From Chitinophagales bacterium (lineage in GTDB: Bacteria; Bacteroidota; Bacteroidia; Chitinophagales; JADJOU01): a stretch of 64,000 nucleotides of DNA. This document shows, in pieces, positions 6,744-63,779 of this stretch. The stretch covers positions 1 to 64,000 of the forward strand of contig JAEUUY010000010.1 of assembly GCA_016787225.1 (NCBI GenBank), read 5' to 3'. The notes below the pieces were generated by a model, which was not told the origin of the DNA, did not search any database, and worked only from the letters and a program-made list of their open reading frames with translations. Within the stretch, counting starts at the first letter, position 1, and each line of letters opens with the position of its first letter. The position numbers were made by a program, and so were the translations under genes.

Positions 6744-9700
6744 TTACCCCACCATTTCCTTCTCCAATCTCGCCAACTTTCTTCGTCTGATATTATGCTT
6801 CCACTTGCTGACGAGATAGAACATAACAGGCACCATGACCAAGGTTAAGACGGTCGCATAGGTCAAGCCAAAGATAATCGTCCATGCTAGCGGTCCCCAG
6901 AAGATAACATTGTCGCCTCCGAGGTAGATATGCGGATTCAAATCGGTAAGGAAGGTAAAGAAATTGAAGTTTAAACCGATAGCCAGAGGTATCAAGCCCA
7001 AGACTGCTGTCGTAGCTGTCAGGAGTACTGGTCGCAAACGTGAACGACCTGCCTCTACGATACAGATGACGAACTGATCCATAGGAATATCTTCGTGGGT
7101 CTCGACTCCCAGCTCTGATTTTTTCTTATCGAGTAGGAGGATAAAAAAGTCCATTAAGACGATACCATTTTTCACCACCACACCTACGAGCGATATGATA
7201 CCCATCATAGTCATGAGTACTACGAAGTCCATATTGGCAAAGGTCAAGCCGAAGAATACCCCTGAGAAACTCAAAAGCACCGTCGCCATGATGATAAAGG
7301 TCTTGGACGTCGAATTGAATTGTAATACAATAATCATAGTGACCCCGAATAAAGCTAGTAATAATGCACGATTCAAGAAGTCCTGATTTTTCTTCTGTTC
7401 TTCTTGCTCACCCGAAAATCCAAAATTCATCTTCGCAGGGAGTTTATAGACCTTGAGTTCATTCTTGATTTCTTGCATAATCTCATTGGCATTATAGCCA
7501 TCCAATAAATTAGAGTAAATGGTCATTATGCGATTTCCTGCCTTGTGATTGATTTGATTGAAGGTGAAAGTCTGCTCTGTCTTAGCCAAAGTAGCCATCG
7601 GGATTTGAATGATTTGACCATTCATCTGATTTCTAAATGTAATCGGCTGATTGAGGATAAGGCTCTCATCTTTTCGTTGATCTGCATTGAGGCGCATCAT
7701 AATTTTATAATTGTCATCGCCTTCTTTATATGTAGAAACTTCTTGTCCATATAAAGCTCTTCTTAAATTAAATCCTACAGCACCTGTTGAGGTCATTAAA
7801 TTTCCTGCAAGGGTTCTATCGATATTCATTTTGAGTTCAGATTTATCTTTATTGATATCCGTACTCAATTTCTCAATTCCAGGTATTTTTTTAGAATTGA
7901 TAAAATCGATAATTTTATTACTCTCGGCTAGCATGGCATCATAATCCTCGCCTTGCAGCTCTATACTTATAGGATATCCTACAGGTGGACCATTACTTTC
8001 TTTCTCTATGGTAATTTTGGCGCCAGGAATCGGTTTGATGTTAGCACGCAGTTCATTTAAAATCTCCTGCGTATTGACTCCTTTACGCTCTTTGAATTCT
8101 TGAAAGAGGACAGTTACTTTTCCTTTGAATGGAGTCTCAGAACTATTCCCCATATCCACTCTAGGATTTCCAGCGCCTTCACCTACTTGGGTTACTACCG
8201 ATTGAACTAAGAAATTAGGAGCTGGATTGACTTTTTTATATTTCTCCAATATACTCAGAACTTGCTTTTCTACTTGTCGTGTTGCATCATTCGTTTTTTC
8301 TATCGGTGTACCCTGCGGAAACTCTACATAGACAATATTTTGATTTGGAATGTTGTCGGGGAAAAACCAGACTTTTCGTGGAAATATTTTAAAAAATAAA
8401 ATAAATGAAAGAAACAATAACCACACTATAGAATAAAGTGAGATTTGCGGTCTCGAAAAAGAAAAATCACGTCGCTTAATCATCCAAAACAATGGAAGTA
8501 TCAGCAAACTAAAAAGTACAGTAAGAACCTTGGATTTATATCGTTTGTCTTCAAATAGCCAAGCTAATCTTCGAGCATACCAATTCTCAAAACGCGGGAA
8601 GTAATGATGCTGAAAAGTCTGTGTAGCATTAAATATATAATGATGATACAACCATAAAAATCCTACTATGATAAAACTCAAATGGGCTATCACTCTCAAT
8701 CCAGTAGCGAATGGAATAGGATTTTCTGTAAACATCTCAGCCTTTCCCATCCACCCAGGAATAGCGAAAAACACACCTATCAATAGTAGATAGCGAGTAT
8801 ATTTTTTCAAATTTTCATAAGAAATATTTTCATCTTTCAGTGCCATAAAGCCCCCTGTCATAGAAGCATTGATAATCATAGCTACAATAAGCGATGCTCC
8901 TAGTACAACCGATAAGGTCGCAGGGAAATAAATCATAAATTTACCCATAGTACCGGGCCATAAACCTAGAGGGAAGAAGGCTGCCAAGGTCGTGGCGGTA
9001 GAGGATATCACTGGCCAAGCTATTTCCCCAATACCGATTTTTGAAGCGGATATTCTATCCATACCCTTCTGCATATTCGCAAAGACATTGTCCACCACCA
9101 CGATACCATCGTCCACAAGCATACCTAATCCCATAACCAAAGCGAAGAGAACCATAGTATTGAGGGTAACACCATAAGCATCTAAAAAAGCAAATGCCAT
9201 CAACATGGAAAGCGGAATAGCCGAACCTACGAATAATGAATTTCGCAATCCCATAGTAAACATAAGCACTGCCATAACTAGGATAATTCCAAAGAGAATA
9301 TGATTGGATAATTCATCGACGGCATGTTCCACTCTCGAAGATTGGTCGCCGGTATATTCAATGGATATATCTCGAGGTATATCCGCTTTTTTTAGTGCTT
9401 CTATACGTTCTTTGACCTTTTCTATCGCATGAATCATATTGGTACCCGAGCGCTTTTTGATATTGATCATGACGACTTCTTTTCCTGACTCGCGAGCATA
9501 AGTCGTTCGCTCTTTTTCCTTAAATTGTACCTCAGCTATATCGCGCAATAGAACTGAACCTCCAAAAGATTTTACGACGATTTGATTGAGTTCATCGGGA
9601 TTGTCAAACTCTCCTATTACACGAATATTGGATTTCTTACCGCCATTTTCGATATTACCTCCAGATATAGTCATATTCTCGCCCTGCACAGCACGCTGCA

Positions 9701-10343
9701 CATCGTCAAAGCTGACAGCAGCACTCGCCATCTTGAATAAATCTAGTGCTATTTCTACCTCTTTGTCACCGACGCCGAGAATTTCTACTTTCTTAATCTC
9801 TGCAATATTCTCGACATCATCTTTAATAATTTTGGCATAGTCTTTCAGAGTCTGCGCAGGATAGTCACCTTTTAAATTGACATTTAGAATCGGGACTTCC
9901 TCTGCAATATTAATGTTAAATATTGTCGGCTCTACTTTACCGCCATTATCCATTTTAGGCCAGTCATTCGCAGCCTTGACCATATCGATTTCATCTTTGG
10001 TTTTTTGCTTGGCTAGTTCTACCGTATGCTTATCATCAAACTCGGCTACTATCAATGAAAAATCTTGGAATGAACTCGATGTGACCTTAGTTACTCCAGA
10101 CAAGTTCTTAATCTTCTTCTCAATAGGATCCGTAACTAATTTTTCCACGTCCTCAGCAGCATTGCCCGGATAGATAGATGAAATGAAAATTTTATTCTCG
10201 ATAATTTCTGGAAAATCCTCACGAGGCATGGTCACATAGGCTATGGTTCCCATTAGCACAATAGCAAAGGTGAGTATATAGACAGTCACTCTGTTCTCAA
10301 CAGCCCATGATGATATTCCGAATTCTTTTTGTTTGAAACTCAT
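6744..10343 (-). CDS. RND efflux transporter permease (AcrB/HAE1 type) with central insertion
   Basis: A 1199-residue inner-membrane pump component, driven by the proton gradient and working with the adaptor and TolC-type channel encoded upstream. The first transmembrane segment lies at about 16-37, followed by the periplasmic porter domain (FPEIIENK, TDPIEKKIKNLSGV). The proton-relay aspartates are present in VDDGIVVVDN (about 411-412), and the partner lysine in VVVKNGIVLMDF (about 1057). The protein is roughly 150 residues longer than usual. The extra length lies at about 500-670, between the two halves, and holds several additional hydrophobic segments (YLLLIGVFFAIPGW, LSFIIVGFLWLYHHYIF, VLFSLLILPLFWMI, LYSIVWLLFLSFILFF). 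The start MSFKQKEFGISSW fits the family. The substrate is unknown. Confidence 0.93.
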   Translation of the reverse strand: MSFKQKEFGISSWAVENRVTVYILTFAIVLMGTIAYVTMPREDFPEIIENKIFISSIYPGNAAEDVEKLVTDPIEKKIKNLSGVTKVTSSSFQDFSLIVAEFDDKHTVELAKQKTKDEIDMVKAANDWPKMDNGGKVEPTIFNINIAEEVPILNVNLKGDYPAQTLKDYAKIIKDDVENIAEIKKVEILGVGDKEVEIALDLFKMASAAVSFDDVQRAVQGENMTISGGNIENGGKKSNIRVIGEFDNPDELNQIVVKSFGGSVLLRDIAEVQFKEKERTTYARESGKEVVMINIKKRSGTNMIHAIEKVKERIEALKKADIPRDISIEYTGDQSSRVEHAVDELSNHILFGIILVMAVLMFTMGLRNSLFVGSAIPLSMLMAFAFLDAYGVTLNTMVLFALVMGLGMLVDDGIVVVDNVFANMQKGMDRISASKIGIGEIAWPVISSTATTLAAFFPLGLWPGTMGKFMIYFPATLSVVLGASLIVAMIINASMTGGFMALKDENISYENLKKYTRYLLLIGVFFAIPGWMGKAEMFTENPIPFATGLRVIAHLSFIIVGFLWLYHHYIFNATQTFQHHYFPRFENWYARRLAWLFEDKRYKSKVLTVLFSLLILPLFWMIKRRDFSFSRPQISLYSIVWLLFLSFILFFKIFPRKVWFFPDNIPNQNIVYVEFPQGTPIEKTNDATRQVEKQVLSILEKYKKVNPAPNFLVQSVVTQVGEGAGNPRVDMGNSSETPFKGKVTVLFQEFKERKGVNTQEILNELRANIKPIPGAKITIEKESNGPPVGYPISIELQGEDYDAMLAESNKIIDFINSKKIPGIEKLSTDINKDKSELKMNIDRTLAGNLMTSTGAVGFNLRRALYGQEVSTYKEGDDNYKIMMRLNADQRKDESLILNQPITFRNQMNGQIIQIPMATLAKTEQTFTFNQINHKAGNRIMTIYSNLLDGYNANEIMQEIKNELKVYKLPAKMNFGFSGEQEEQKKNQDFLNRALLLALFGVTMIIVLQFNSTSKTFIIMATVLLSFSGVFFGLTFANMDFVVLMTMMGIISLVGVVVKNGIVLMDFFILLLDKKKSELGVETHEDIPMDQFVICIVEAGRSRLRPVLLTATTAVLGLIPLAIGLNFNFFTFLTDLNPHIYLGGDNVIFWGPLAWTIIFGLTYATVLTLVMVPVMFYLVSKWKHNIRRRKLARLEKEMVG

Positions 10344-10366
10344 TTTTTTTACTTTTATTTTATATT

Positions 10367-10386
10367 CACCACATAGGACACATAGG
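10367..10386. repeat. left word-repeat flank of the GxxExxY gene
   Basis: CACCACATAGGACACATAGG carries two copies of the word CACATAGG. It is an imperfect inverted match to 10858-10878 on the other side of the GxxExxY gene. Confidence 0.6.
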
Positions 10387-10443
10387 TTTTGTATGGTTTG
10401 AATATTTATTATGAAAATTTTTTATTTTTTAATTTCTCTGTAA

Positions 10444-10857
10444 TTAACTATTAGGTAATGATTTGAAATATTCATTCACGAAAGTCTTCTGTCCCTCTTT
10501 AAAAATATTGTTACAATTGAAATTAATTAGTAGGCCTTTAGGTGCTTGTAATAATTTCATATAGGTGAGAAGCTGCGCTTCAAACATAGGAGTAAATTCG
10601 GTAACAGACTTCAACTCAACTACAATTAAATTCTCTATAAATAAATCACATCTAAATTCAACTTCAAGTTTCTTTTCTCTATAAACTATAGGGATAACAA
10701 ACTCTGTGTAAAAATTTATTTTTCTATGTCGTAACTCTTCAATTAAACATTTATGATAAATCGATTCAAGCAAGCCTCTTCCAAGAAATTTATGAACTTC
10801 TATTGCGCTACCAATAACTTCATAGGTTAAGTCATTAATATACTTCTTAGAAATCAT
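10444..10857 (-). CDS. GxxExxY family protein (PDDEXK_3-like)
   Basis: About 137 residues, with the name-giving motif GRGLLESIYHKCL at roughly residues 27-39 and a PD-(D/E)xK-like core: RCDLFIENLIVVELKS supplies the Asp and the ExK, followed by AQLLTYMKL. The family is widespread and often solitary; its biochemical role is not established, although a nuclease fold is predicted. It lies in the same direction between the adaptor and the pump of the efflux operon, where no such gene is expected, and it is bracketed by inverted CACATAGG-type repeats. A GTG at 10860 would extend the frame by one residue; the ATG at 10857 is preferred. Confidence 0.85.
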   Translation of the reverse strand: MISKKYINDLTYEVIGSAIEVHKFLGRGLLESIYHKCLIEELRHRKINFYTEFVIPIVYREKKLEVEFRCDLFIENLIVVELKSVTEFTPMFEAQLLTYMKLLQAPKGLLINFNCNNIFKEGQKTFVNEYFKSLPNS

Positions 10858-10878
10858 CACTATGTGATCTATGTGGTT
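10858..10878. repeat. right word-repeat flank of the GxxExxY gene
   Basis: CACTATGTGATCTATGTGGT is the inverted partner of 10367-10386: the words CTATGTG and CTATGTGGT are shared in opposite orientation. It abuts the start codon of the GxxExxY gene. Confidence 0.6.
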
Positions 10879-10890
10879 ATTTTCAGAATG

Positions 10891-12027: not shown

Positions 12028-13344
12028 TTAAAATTTTCCTTGAATTTTTTTGAGGTCGATATGACTATTTAAAAGATTTAATTCTGACTGTAGAAGTTTT
12101 AAATATTGCTGGATACGCTCGTTTTGCGCATTAGCAAATTCGAAGCTACTGCCGACTCCTTCTTTATATTTCACCTGAGTTTTATGCTCTATTTTTTCTG
12201 AAAGTTTGAGAATGTCTTTTTGATTTTTAAATTCATTAATATTATTGCGAAGCGTCAATACGGTATTCATATTTTCTATTTTGAGAGAATTGTATAAATT
12301 TTGTTTATCCACTTCTGCTTTTTCCAAGGCTAGCTTGGCTTGGCTAATTTGACTCTTTCTCGTAAAACCATCAAAGATGGGTATATTGGCTTGAATACCG
12401 AAATTTCCGAAATTATACCATTTATTATTGAGAAAATTAAAGCGATTGCTGAATGAATTATATCCGTAGTTGGCAGCACCAAAAAGACTAGGTAACGCTG
12501 AATATCGCATTTGTTTCAGATCATATTTTTTCAATAATATAGCTTGGTCTGCGAGTTTAAACTCTAATCTATTTTCCAAATTTTCGATAAATGGACTTTG
12601 CTGAAAAGCCTCTTGCAGTATATGAGCTACATCTTCCGCTATCATCAAACTATCTTCCATTGGGAAACCCATATTGAGTTTCAAGGCAGAAATAGCTAAT
12701 TGATTTTGAGTTTCTAATACAGATATTGCATTTTCTATGGTCTTAACGTTGTATTGCAATCGCTCGACATCGAGTTCTTCTATCAAACCTTGTTTATAGA
12801 TTTTATTTGTTTGGTCATATAATTTTTCGATAACAAGTTTACTTTCTTTGAGTGATTTCAAGCTCTTTTTTGCTGCTACTGCTTGAAAATAGTTCTTGGA
12901 GATTAATACTTTGACATCACGCTCGCTCATTTTGACTTGTAGATTGGCAAGTTCCTTAATAGATGCGCGCGCCTGCACCCCCACGAGGTAGCGACCATCA
13001 AAGATAAGCTGCTGCAAACCTATATTGGCATTCATAGTATTGCTTATCCCAAACTGCACTGGAATCAATTGTCCTGGAGCACCGAAAGCATCGCCCGGTA
13101 TGACACTCGTAGGCACTATGAATTGATTTTGGTAGGCTATAGAACCGTTTATCTTTGGAAAACCTTGCGTCAAAACCTCTTGAGTTTTTTCATAGGTTAT
13201 TGATTTTTCCAATTGATTCTTTTGATGATTGTAGTTATGCTTTAGTGCATAATCAATAGCAGCTTCTACAGTAAACACACTTTGCTGAGCGTATAGACCG
13301 GGAAGTATAAAACTAGTAACTAGTAGTACAATTAATTTATTCAT
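12028..13344 (-). CDS. TolC family outer-membrane efflux protein
   Basis: A 438-residue outer-membrane channel subunit with a signal peptide (about 1-19, ending LYAQ). It has the two long alpha-helical repeats of the family, for example ALKHNYNHQKNQLEKSITYE near the N-terminus, AKLALEKAEVDKQNLYNSLK in the second half, and the late KYKEGVGSSFEFANAQNERI typical of the last helix. It follows the TetR gene by 3 bp and precedes the adaptor, so it is the outer part of this tripartite pump. Confidence 0.9.
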   Translation of the reverse strand: MNKLIVLLVTSFILPGLYAQQSVFTVEAAIDYALKHNYNHQKNQLEKSITYEKTQEVLTQGFPKINGSIAYQNQFIVPTSVIPGDAFGAPGQLIPVQFGISNTMNANIGLQQLIFDGRYLVGVQARASIKELANLQVKMSERDVKVLISKNYFQAVAAKKSLKSLKESKLVIEKLYDQTNKIYKQGLIEELDVERLQYNVKTIENAISVLETQNQLAISALKLNMGFPMEDSLMIAEDVAHILQEAFQQSPFIENLENRLEFKLADQAILLKKYDLKQMRYSALPSLFGAANYGYNSFSNRFNFLNNKWYNFGNFGIQANIPIFDGFTRKSQISQAKLALEKAEVDKQNLYNSLKIENMNTVLTLRNNINEFKNQKDILKLSEKIEHKTQVKYKEGVGSSFEFANAQNERIQQYLKLLQSELNLLNSHIDLKKIQGKF

Positions 13345-13347
13345 ATA

Positions 13348-13947
13348 TTATAACTCAAAATTTATTTTATCTAAATATTTAATTCCTTTAGGTGTACCAA
13401 TGCCATTAATGTGATAGTACATAAGTTCTTTTTCTAGTTCACCAAAGGATCGACTGCGCTGCTGTGCGAAAAAATCAACCATATTGAATATACTATGAAA
13501 ATATTGACTAGCTATAAACTCAACATCTATAGTACTTCTATAGAGACCTTCTTCCTGACCTCGCTGCATATTTTCTACAATGGTTTTTAAAACACAGGTC
13601 TTAAAAAAATCTTGCAATTTTTTCCAGCAATGGGGATAGTATTTCTGGATATCAGCCACGAAAATTGGTTTCATTTTGCGATGGGTCTCCATATCCATTT
13701 GATAAATCAACCTCAATTCGTCTATCGCATTCTTCGCTAAAGTTTTCACTCGATCTATTCCGCATGCGTGTTCTGAAATATGACTATCGATTTCACATTC
13801 GACTATTTCATCCTTACTGGTAAAATGAGCGTAAATGGTTTTCTTAGAAATACCTAGCGCAGTGGCGATATCGTCCATATTGACAGCCTTGATACCACGC
13901 TCAAAAAAAAGCGTCCTCGCTAGTTCTAAAATAGATTCTTTATTCAT
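13348..13947 (-). CDS. TetR/AcrR family transcriptional regulator
   Basis: 199 residues. The N-terminal helix-turn-helix is clear (MDDIATALGISKKTIYAHFTSKDEIVE, about 23-50; written in two overlapping parts it is MDDIATALGISKK and TIYAHFTSKDEIV). The C-terminal ligand/dimer domain is less conserved. As the first gene of the efflux operon it most likely represses its own promoter and the pump genes and is released by a pump substrate. The -7 box lies only 7 nt before the start codon, so the transcript is nearly leaderless. Confidence 0.9.
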   Translation of the reverse strand: MNKESILELARTLFFERGIKAVNMDDIATALGISKKTIYAHFTSKDEIVECEIDSHISEHACGIDRVKTLAKNAIDELRLIYQMDMETHRKMKPIFVADIQKYYPHCWKKLQDFFKTCVLKTIVENMQRGQEEGLYRSTIDVEFIASQYFHSIFNMVDFFAQQRSRSFGELEKELMYYHINGIGTPKGIKYLDKINFEL

Positions 13948-57835: not shown

Positions 57836-58859
57836 TTATTTGAAACAACTATCGACTACCTCATAATTTAAAGTCTGTGTCATAATAACTCTTTCACCTG
57901 AAGCACGGATACCTTCAAACTTTACTTGGTGACTATAAAAGCCAAGTTGTCTAGGGCATTTAAACTTATAATAGTAAACATTTAAATCATAAAAGTCTTT
58001 TTGTAATCTTCCATTTATAAATAGTTTATCTATCATTAATTCATAGTTATCTGCTTTAATAATTACCTCATTATAGCTTCCGGGCAATGCTCTAGTGTTT
58101 TTTACTATTGCTATGTGTTGTGTGGAATGATAACTGCCAAAACCTACCTAGCCTAATTGATTTATAATATAGCTTGAGTAGATATTATAAATTGTCATAT
58201 TGGCAATGTATAGTCTATTTACTATAGTTAAATAATTAAGAGGACTAGTTTGTTGGTAATGAGAAGTAATAATTTGCTTGGCGTTAAACTCACTAAGGCT
58301 ATCAATTCGTTTTATTTCTAAACTATATCTATCTATAACATTTTCTGAAATTTTATCCTTATTTGTAATCAGTATTTTATTGTAGTTTTGATTTATAAGG
58401 TCAACTATGGCGTTTATTTCTTCATCTATACTCTCGATATCATTTTGAGATATTTTATTCAGAAAGAACTTAGGTTTACCATAAGCATTAAACCTAAGCT
58501 TTCCAAGTTTTTCTGCACGATACTTTATATGATTAATGGCATCATTTATTTTATTATTTTCTTGTCTCAGTTGATTAAAAATCGGTGCATATATATCTAA
58601 CTTAACACTCTTATACCTATTGTTTTTTTGCAGCCTCTATAGAAGATTCAGCAATATAATCCATTTGTTTCAAAGCATTAATTTGCATTAAGTCCAAATT
58701 AGACTCTTTTATAAAACTATTATATTCCTCAACATCATTTCTATATTGACATTGAAGGAAAAGCAAAGGAAAAATAGAAACAAAGAATCTCACAATACTA
58801 TAATGCAAAAATGAAGTAAATATTTTACACCTAAGTTTAAATGAAACCATCATACACAA
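57836..58859 (-). pseudogene. decayed GldM-like gene with frameshift and internal stop
   Basis: One coding sequence of about 340 codons can be rebuilt across two lesions. The first part (from 58859) gives a hydrophobic leader ending LLFLQC and helices up to IAESSIEAAKK. A run of seven A (minus strand) at 58623-58629 then shifts the frame; with six A the reading continues NNRYKSVKLDIYAPIFNQLR and on to YSSYIINQLG. An in-frame TAG at 58148-58150 follows. Beyond it the same frame goes on with VGFGSYHSTQHIAIVKNTRA and a beta-domain ending LNYEVVDSCFK. The helical first half and the following Ig-like domain resemble the periplasmic domains of GldM. It overlaps the ATPase stop by 10 bp. The GldM assignment is tentative. 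Confidence 0.6.
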
Positions 58860-59971
58860 AACTCCATATAGTTTTCTTTAGTGATTACTTTGGTTTCTCC
58901 GATGGGATAGGCATTGGTAAACGTCTTAGAGAAACGTGCCTTTTGCATCGAACTCCACTTAAATTCATAGGCATTGAGTAACCCATTTTGTTCTTCGACA
59001 TAGTCTATTTCTTGTTGGTCTTTCGTGCGCCAGAAATATTTATTCAAATAATTTTTCGTATAATGATTGTACTTCATTCGCTCCATGACGATAAAATTTT
59101 CCCAAAGCTTCCCTATATCTTGTCTTCCTTCTAATATTTGAAAATTAGAAATAAGCGCATTGCGAACACCATTATCATAGAAATAAATTTTCTTCGAAAG
59201 TTTTAATTCATTTCTCAAGTTTCTATTCAAAGAATTCAATCGGAAAATAACAAATGATTTTTCTAATAAATTTATGTAAGATTCGACAGTTTTACTATCA
59301 AGACCTACCAAATTTCCTAGCTCATTGTATGACACTTCTGCTCCGATTTGAAATGCGAGGGCTTGGAGTAAAGTCACTAATTTCTCCGGCTTCTTGATGC
59401 TATCTAGCATTAGAATATCTCTAAACAAATAGCTATCCGCTAATAATTTGAGCATTTCTTTTTCATTGCCCTGTTTTGTCACAATCTCTGGATACATGCC
59501 ATAAACGAGTCTATTGGATAGCATCCGCTGCTCCTCTATCTCACTGGTATGCGCCACCATCTCTGAGGTAGAGAGTGGGAATAAATACATTTCTATTTTT
59601 CTACCCGTTAAGGGCTCGCTCGTTTTATTATTTAATTCAAAGGCAGAAGAACCTGTAACAATTAATTGTACATCTGGATAGGTATCATAAAGCAATTTCA
59701 ATCCAATACCAATATTTTCAATTTTCTGAGCCTCGTCGATCACCACGAGTTTGCTATTTCCTATTAAGGACTTGAGTGATGTGGAGCTAGGTTTTTTAAA
59801 TCGCTCGTGGATATCATATTCATCTCCATTGAGCCATAAGCTATTTTTTGTTTTGCTCACTAGGTCTTTCAACAAAGTCGTTTTACCTGTTTGCCGAGCA
59901 CCTAAAAGCATAATGACTTTTCGTTTATACAAACTATCATTTAATTGTTTGACGGCATTTCTTTCAACCAT
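58850..59971 (-). CDS. AAA ATPase of the AAA_14/DUF4143 type
   Basis: 373 residues. N-terminal P-loop LLGARQTGKTTLLKDL at about 21-36, Walker B KLVVIDEAQKIENIG, and sensor VTGSSAFELNNK. The C-terminal DUF4143 region has YNELGNLVGLDSKTVESYIN (a helix-turn-helix-like stretch), LNSLNRNLRNELKLSKKIYF and the PD-(D/E)xK-like FWRTKDQQEIDYVEEQNG with YEFKW. Such genes are common, scattered and of unknown role. Upstream lies an array of long stem-loop repeats. Confidence 0.9.
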   Translation of the reverse strand: MVERNAVKQLNDSLYKRKVIMLLGARQTGKTTLLKDLVSKTKNSLWLNGDEYDIHERFKKPSSTSLKSLIGNSKLVVIDEAQKIENIGIGLKLLYDTYPDVQLIVTGSSAFELNNKTSEPLTGRKIEMYLFPLSTSEMVAHTSEIEEQRMLSNRLVYGMYPEIVTKQGNEKEMLKLLADSYLFRDILMLDSIKKPEKLVTLLQALAFQIGAEVSYNELGNLVGLDSKTVESYINLLEKSFVIFRLNSLNRNLRNELKLSKKIYFYDNGVRNALISNFQILEGRQDIGKLWENFIVMERMKYNHYTKNYLNKYFWRTKDQQEIDYVEEQNGLLNAYEFKWSSMQKARFSKTFTNAYPIGETKVITKENYMEFCV

Positions 59972-60000
59972 AACTAAATTTCAATATGTAAAAATACATA

Positions 60001-60345
60001 CTTTTTCGATTGTATTCCGAAATAGTTGACTCTTTTTTGGATTACAATCGAAAAAAGAACGAAAACCAAAACCTTGGAGGGAAAATAAAGCTATATAAAT
60101 AAATGAATATCAATATTCAATATCATTTTATCCAACTTTTTGGATTATATTCCGAAATAGTTGATACTTTTTTAGATTACATTCCAAAAAAGTAAGAGAT
60201 AAATATCTTGGAGGAAAAATAAAGTTACATATTTAATTGAATACCAATAGTTAATATCATATAATCCGACTTTTTGGATTATATTCCGAAATAGTTGACT
60301 CTTTTTTGGATTACATTCTAAAAAAGACGAACATAAATATTCCTC
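60001..60345. repeat. 2.5 tandem copies of a 134-135 bp stem-loop repeat
   Basis: Unit starts are at 60001, 60136 and 60270; the third copy breaks off near 60345. Each unit opens with CTTTTT(C/G)GATT and a TATTCCGAAATAGTTGA core and then holds a second CTTTTTT(G/A)GATTACA arm. In the first copy 60001-60018 and 60039-60056 pair over 18 bp with one mismatch. Copies two and three keep a shorter CTTTTTTxGA/TCxAAAAAAG stem. The rest of each unit is AT-rich with a conserved CTTGGAGG stretch in copies one and two. It fills the 382 bp gap between the ATPase start and the DUF885 gene stop. Confidence 0.85.
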
Positions 60346-63497: not shown

Positions 63498-63779
63498 ATG
63501 ATAATTTCATTTGGAAATAAGGAGACTGAAAAAATCTGGAATGGTTTAGTATCAAAGAAACTACCAATAGAAATTCAAGAAATCGCTAGAAGAAAATTAA
63601 GAATGATAAACAACTCAATAGATATAAATGATTTAAAAATTCCTCCAGCGAACAAGCTAGAAAAGCTAAAAGGCAGTTGGAAAGATTATTATAGTATAAG
63701 GATAAACAATCAATGGAGAATTATCTTTAAATGGACGAATGGAAATGCAAGTGAAGTTGAAATTATAGATTACCATTAA
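63498..63779 (+). CDS. higB: HigB-type toxin of a type II toxin-antitoxin system
   Basis: 93 residues, RelE/HigB fold. Such toxins cut mRNA on the ribosome. Pattern: FGNKETEKIWNGL, QEIARRKLRMINNSIDINDL, PPANKLEKLKGSWKDYYSIR and INNQWRIIFKW near the C-terminus, which carries the conserved Arg residues. Toxin-first order with the antitoxin 12 bp downstream is the HigBA arrangement. Confidence 0.93.
   Translation: MIISFGNKETEKIWNGLVSKKLPIEIQEIARRKLRMINNSIDINDLKIPPANKLEKLKGSWKDYYSIRINNQWRIIFKWTNGNASEVEIIDYH

Follow-up and report, generated by a model that had tools for sequence, protein, structure and literature searches.

In an RND efflux operon of a Chitinophagales genome, a single small gene of the GxxExxY family, bracketed by short inverted words, separates the adaptor gene from the pump gene. 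This arrangement raises the question of whether the gene and its flanks form a unit that is inserted as a whole, and of whether the encoded protein acts on the words at its own ends. In the window, by which we mean the entire 64,000-nucleotide stretch of DNA that was analysed, the operon is ordered tetR, tolC-like, RND adaptor, GxxExxY and RND pump, with all genes on the minus strand:

6744 to 10343, minus strand: RND pump (ACR_tran), downstream of the insert
10344 to 10890, minus strand: 547-bp stretch from the adaptor stop to the pump start, containing the insert; five related species have a short spacer here
10367 to 10386, plus strand: CACCACATAGGACACATAGG, the outer tandem words 3' of the gene, with a word period of 9
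10444 to 10860, minus strand: GxxExxY/PDDEXK_3 gene, 138 aa from the GTG at 10860 or 137 aa from the ATG at 10857, with GxxExxY at residue 29, D72, E82-x-K84 and Q96xxxY100
10860 to 10877, minus strand: outer tandem words on the 5' side, CTATGTGATCTATGTGGT, inverted and directly adjoining the start codon
10891 to 12006, minus strand: RND adaptor (membrane fusion protein), upstream of the insert
12028 to 13344, minus strand: outer membrane efflux protein (tolC-like), host operon
13348 to 13947, minus strand: TetR-type regulator, host operon

The two-word arms of this pair (10368-10385 and 10860-10877, 18 nt each and 474 nt apart) are complementary at 16 of 18 positions (89%), which confirms the first-pass annotation in its observation that inverted words surround exactly one gene at the adaptor-pump junction of a tetR-tolC-adaptor-pump operon. 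Across the 64-kb window, CTATGTGNYCTATGTGG has two exact matches, both at the GxxExxY flanks, and three matches when up to 3 mismatches are allowed, compared with 0.57 expected from shuffles. Among the 62 window ORFs of at least 80 aa, the flanking inverted repeat of the GxxExxY gene ranks second, the first-ranked being simple A/T-rich sequence. Elsewhere in the window, a 56-nt near-perfect palindrome (CGATTAAGAATTTGTTGCAATCCCGTACGTACGGGATTGAAACAAATTCTAAATCG) occupies intergenic positions 147-202 near the start, and a HigB-like toxin gene (PF05015) lies at 63498-63779 near the end. In addition, a tandem array of 134-bp units (60000-60335), which hold the inverted words TTTTTnGATTnnATTCCGAAATAG and CTTTTTTGGATTACAnTC, is found immediately upstream of an AAA_14/DUF4143 ATPase gene (58850-59971, minus strand), which is possibly another gene with private repeats.

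Insertion of the gene together with its words

To compare occupied and empty sites, the adaptor gene was located in related genomes and its junction with the pump gene was then inspected. In four congeners and one confamilial species this junction is a short spacer that holds neither the gene nor CACATAG words, which rules out the words as an old component of the RND operon. The intergenic sequence at the window junction is too diverged among relatives to place the exact ends of the insert. A Pedobacter copy of the element lies between two operon genes that are joined directly in six aligned species, and an Elizabethkingia copy has an empty site in three Elizabethkingia species at 92-93% identity; the words are absent from these empty sites too. 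At the Elizabethkingia site the sequence just beyond the words also differs between species, so that the exact ends were not located there. Relative to the operons of its relatives, the gene is inserted together with its words, and the earlier proposal that GxxExxY and its flanks entered as a unit is supported by the empty RND junctions of the five species and by the Pedobacter and Elizabethkingia sites. None of these empty sites has the words, and the gene is also found outside the RND operon elsewhere; both outcomes go against the refutations that the first-pass annotation had named. A target duplication was sought at the Elizabethkingia and Pedobacter sites and none was found, the flanks being too different or the elements common to all species, which counts against the mobile-element reading developed below.

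The window GxxExxY protein is 76% identical to a protein of Elizabethkingia occulta, compared with 72% identity of the RND adaptor in the nearest congener, indicating that the insert has a history different from that of its surroundings. Carriage by plasmids or phages was rejected as an explanation, given that relatives occur in only 8 of 72,556 plasmid records and in 2 phage records, both from one virus.

A predicted nuclease and the words of its branch

The window gene is a clear member of the TIGR04256/PF13366 (PDDEXK_3) family, with profile matches of 130 bits to TIGR04256 (cut-off 35, E 5.2e-38) and 128.9 bits to PF13366 (cut-off 22, E 1.6e-37), the latter being the sole Pfam family matched at E ≤ 0.001. 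In the open literature searched, where three papers name the family, we found no function described for GxxExxY, TIGR04256 or PF13366 proteins. Residues G29, E32, Y35, D72, E82, K84, Q96 and Y100 are invariant in 39 aligned relatives, and this pattern is that of a PD-(D/E)XK nuclease, QxxxY being a motif found in enzymes of the RecB/Cas4 type. Consistent with this, a structure model of the window protein (mean pLDDT 94.8) has as its top solved-fold match the Cas4 protein SSO0001 (PDB 4ic1; Foldseek E 2.5e-4, VIA Z 8.3 over 101 residues), which shares the D, ExK and QxxxY residue pattern, and the weak profile matches of the protein are likewise to Cas4, with Cas4 family thresholds weakly touched. 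The window protein differs from Cas4/RecB enzymes in being much smaller (138 aa) and in having a locus that is not CRISPR. The PD-(D/E)XK-like core proposed at first reading is therefore supported by the modelled fold and the invariant residues, and the GxxExxY protein is predicted to be a RecB/Cas4-type nuclease.

The words that accompany this protein were followed in 80 relatives of 59-76% identity, which were chosen by protein similarity alone and span Flavobacterium, Chryseobacterium, Pedobacter, Cyclobacteriaceae, Ignavibacteriaceae, an Acidobacteria MAG and others. CACATAG upstream with its inverse downstream was found in 63 of the 80, and on at least one side in 74. These elements usually end in ACCACATAGnnACATAG; their words recur with a period of 8 in 121 cases and of 9 in 27. 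On the protein tree the CACATAG label requires 16 changes, compared with 40 or more in each of 200 shuffles, and it is absent from all proteins distant from the window protein. The other two GxxExxY genes of the source genome are flanked by different words, CACGAATTCACGAATTT and CACGGAATTCACAGAA. A second branch of 29 loci, chosen by protein only (at least 61% identical to the L080 protein), has GTCnGAA or tandem nGATT words in the flanks of 24 loci, 14 of which have them on both sides, whereas CACATAG on both sides occurs in 0 of 29. Each protein branch thus appears to have its own word set, a fit seen in two branches.

A broader set of 68 GxxExxY genes was picked by Pfam profile, regardless of flanks, with 52 neighbouring genes as controls. 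Inverted-repeat scores of at least 13 between the two flanks were obtained for 47% of the GxxExxY genes and for 0 of the 52 neighbours, and for 0.3% of shuffles. Flank pairs taken across loci reached this score in 1.7% of cases, indicating that the repeats in this mixed set are mostly private to their locus; among near relatives, 57% of mismatched flank pairs share repeats. Five loci have hairpin-like ends, and at two of the loci analysed (L141 and L176) the hairpin at one end directly repeats the hairpin at the other, their loops being almost identical, a possible hint of a folded substrate. A search of the open literature returned no publication on the words or on their link to GxxExxY; the word sequences themselves matched only two papers, on unrelated animal topics.

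Gene-free elements and their co-occurrence with the protein

The same words also occur away from the gene. In the source genome, eight of the nine occurrences of ACATAGnnnCATAG form four inverted pairs, 133-148 bp apart, with no gene between them. This pattern is present in 29 of 30 genomes holding a relative, where forward copies number as many as 60 and reverse copies as many as 62; the reversed control pattern gave 0-4 copies per strand in those genomes. In one of them (G082), by our count from the site list, a reverse partner lies 105-215 bp further on for 17 of the 21 forward sites. An alignment of twenty copies from two Flavobacterium species shows discrete elements about 145 bp long, with a single longer one; their conservation ends at the words and their flanks are unrelated. 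An internal motif of these elements, GGCGTTTCAC, also lies next to the gene in 18 of 49 Flavobacterium gene elements (0.02 expected per locus; 0 of 61 elsewhere), which ties the gene-free form to the gene-bearing form. An Rfam search of the gene-free elements gave no match. The sole Rfam match in those loci is an unrelated TPP riboswitch (RF00059) at L254 10626-10723.

The source genome provides a less simple picture, in that three of its five gene-free copies are nested in a larger MITE, which spans about 340 bp and whose ends resemble AGGGTCTGCTGAAAAACT:

1366-1702 of locus L004, contig C5: MITE copy
1461-1797 of locus L008, contig C20: MITE copy
about 1317-1690 of locus L012, contig C31: MITE copy

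The ends of this unrelated MITE are different from the words, and from the alignment we read a 5-6-bp target duplication at two copies. These three copies were thus spread by another transposase, which counts against our main reading and weakens the case for movement in trans that the gene-free copies of the source genome could make. Only the word-to-word part is common to a fourth copy (L010), which supports the word pair as the unit. Also to be set against our reading, the gene-free elements of Elizabethkingia are mostly old and common to several species; in Elizabethkingia occulta (L250, L253, L254 and L259) they form local tandem arrays whose copy number varies between species at the same junctions.

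Dispersed words and protein occur together across 150 Flavobacterium species. Genomes with a cognate protein, defined as at least 62% identical, hold a median of 35 word sites (32 genomes), compared with a median of 0.5 in the 30 genomes that yielded no GxxExxY protein, and a control pattern gave about 1 site in both groups. Flavobacterium species are not independent data points, so that p-values overstate the case; the effect is large. Nine Flavobacterium genomes have at least 20 word sites and lack the cognate gene, which counts against the main reading: either these genomes lost the gene before the repeats, or they are evidence against a strict link. Genes of the cognate type number one or two per genome among the matches listed, and the GxxExxY family as a whole is present in 38 of 60 related genomes, frequently in several copies.

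Candidate mechanism, alternatives and known systems

Taken together, we consider it probable that the insert is a one-gene mobile element, composed of tandem words, the GxxExxY gene and inverted tandem words, in which a small RecB/Cas4-type PD-(D/E)XK nuclease recognises the branch-specific words at its own ends, and that the gene-free elements with the same ends are its REPIN-like or MITE-like passengers. In such a model, the nuclease would bind the tandem 8-9-nt words at both ends, perhaps upon pairing of the inverted ends or their folding into hairpins, and would then cut at the words, after which host repair or replication would finish copying or joining. The need for host functions, which arises because a lone nuclease cannot join DNA, weighs against the model. 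The first-pass annotation had suggested an enzyme that acts on its flanks. The match of branch to words, the gene-free elements co-occurring with the protein, and a predicted fold and residues that fit a nuclease support this indirectly; from these we infer that the words are bound and cut by the nuclease, which would also move the gene-free elements.

An ordinary transposon, with the words as terminal inverted repeats and GxxExxY as a cut-and-paste transposase that possibly duplicates TTAA, would equally have inverted ends, empty sites and gene-free derivatives with the same ends. TTAA stands immediately outside both ends in 35 of 59 copies, compared with a background of about 5% per end, and could represent a duplicated target or else belong to the end itself. 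However, TTAA is absent from the ends of the window element, no duplication was found at the resolved empty sites, and the one or two cognate-type genes per genome among the matches listed are unlike a multiplying insertion sequence. We regard this alternative as unlikely. Somewhat less likely still is a domesticated nuclease whose words serve to regulate the gene or nearby transcription, as binding sites or as RNA hairpins, the dispersed words being regulatory or nucleoid sites and movement being rare and incidental. Flavobacterium orthologues are under strong purifying selection (dN/dS 0.02-0.11), which also speaks for the main reading and indicates that the protein is kept for what it does, and CACATAG-type genes are co-directional with both neighbours at 56 of 74 loci, compared with 52 of 101 control triples. 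In Kaistella and Chryseobacterium (L119, L121, L123 and L132) the cognate gene is retained at a site common to them, its end words having decayed, and the two such genomes counted have almost no dispersed words. Against domestication, the words appear and vanish along with the gene, and the gene-free elements occur dispersed, as discrete units whose flanks are unrelated. Homing of the gene into a pre-existing palindromic word pair that served as its cutting site would draw on known PD-(D/E)XK homing enzymes and on the gene-free word pairs of the same genomes, but we reject it as very improbable, since the empty RND junctions of five species and the Pedobacter and Elizabethkingia sites, which come from related genomes rather than close strains, have no word pair.

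The mobile nuclease element that we favour can be placed beside several known systems. We know of no cognate flanking words for Rpn/YhgA-like nucleases. Those proteins resemble GxxExxY in being a nuclease family tied to DNA mobility and formerly annotated as transposases (PF04754; PMC5350276), but they form a separate Pfam family that the window protein, a PF13366 member, does not match. Like MITEs, the gene-free elements are short and dispersed with inverted ends; they differ in that their presumed partner is a nuclease rather than a DDE transposase, and in that no target duplication was found. The closest parallel is REPIN/RAYT, in which a low-copy gene with flanking repeats accompanies dispersed inverted pairs, with several families per genome and lateral spread combined with local persistence (PMC3116915; PMC3733652), and for which REPtrons and TIRtrons have been described (PMC3733652). 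GxxExxY genes are similarly low-copy and repeat-flanked, their repeats are dispersed as inverted pairs, several word families share one genome, and lateral spread goes with local persistence. In contrast, RAYTs, or REP-associated tyrosine transposases, are of the HUH, IS200-like type, whereas GxxExxY has a predicted PD-(D/E)XK fold, the window protein lacks an HUH (H-hydrophobic-H) motif, and the GxxExxY repeats are tandem 8-9-nt words. By this analogy, the best reading is that the GxxExxY system works like REPIN/RAYT yet is not a member of it, its enzyme having an unrelated fold. More tentatively, and with slightly less than even confidence, we envisage a REPIN-like system in which a Cas4/RecB-type nuclease, rather than an HUH, DDE or recombinase enzyme, reads the tandem 8-9-nt words through a widely diversified code of branches and words that allows several orthogonal systems within one genome.

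These observations suggest a type of mobile DNA without earlier description in the open literature searched, whose enzyme would read words. For the widespread GxxExxY/PDDEXK_3 family, the match between branch and words supplies a testable substrate. If our reading is true, it would account for one class of the intergenic repeats of Bacteroidota and would represent a second, unrelated solution to the puzzle posed by REPIN/RAYT, namely how a low-copy enzyme and dispersed repeats persist jointly. The word code would then be readable through swaps of proteins and words.
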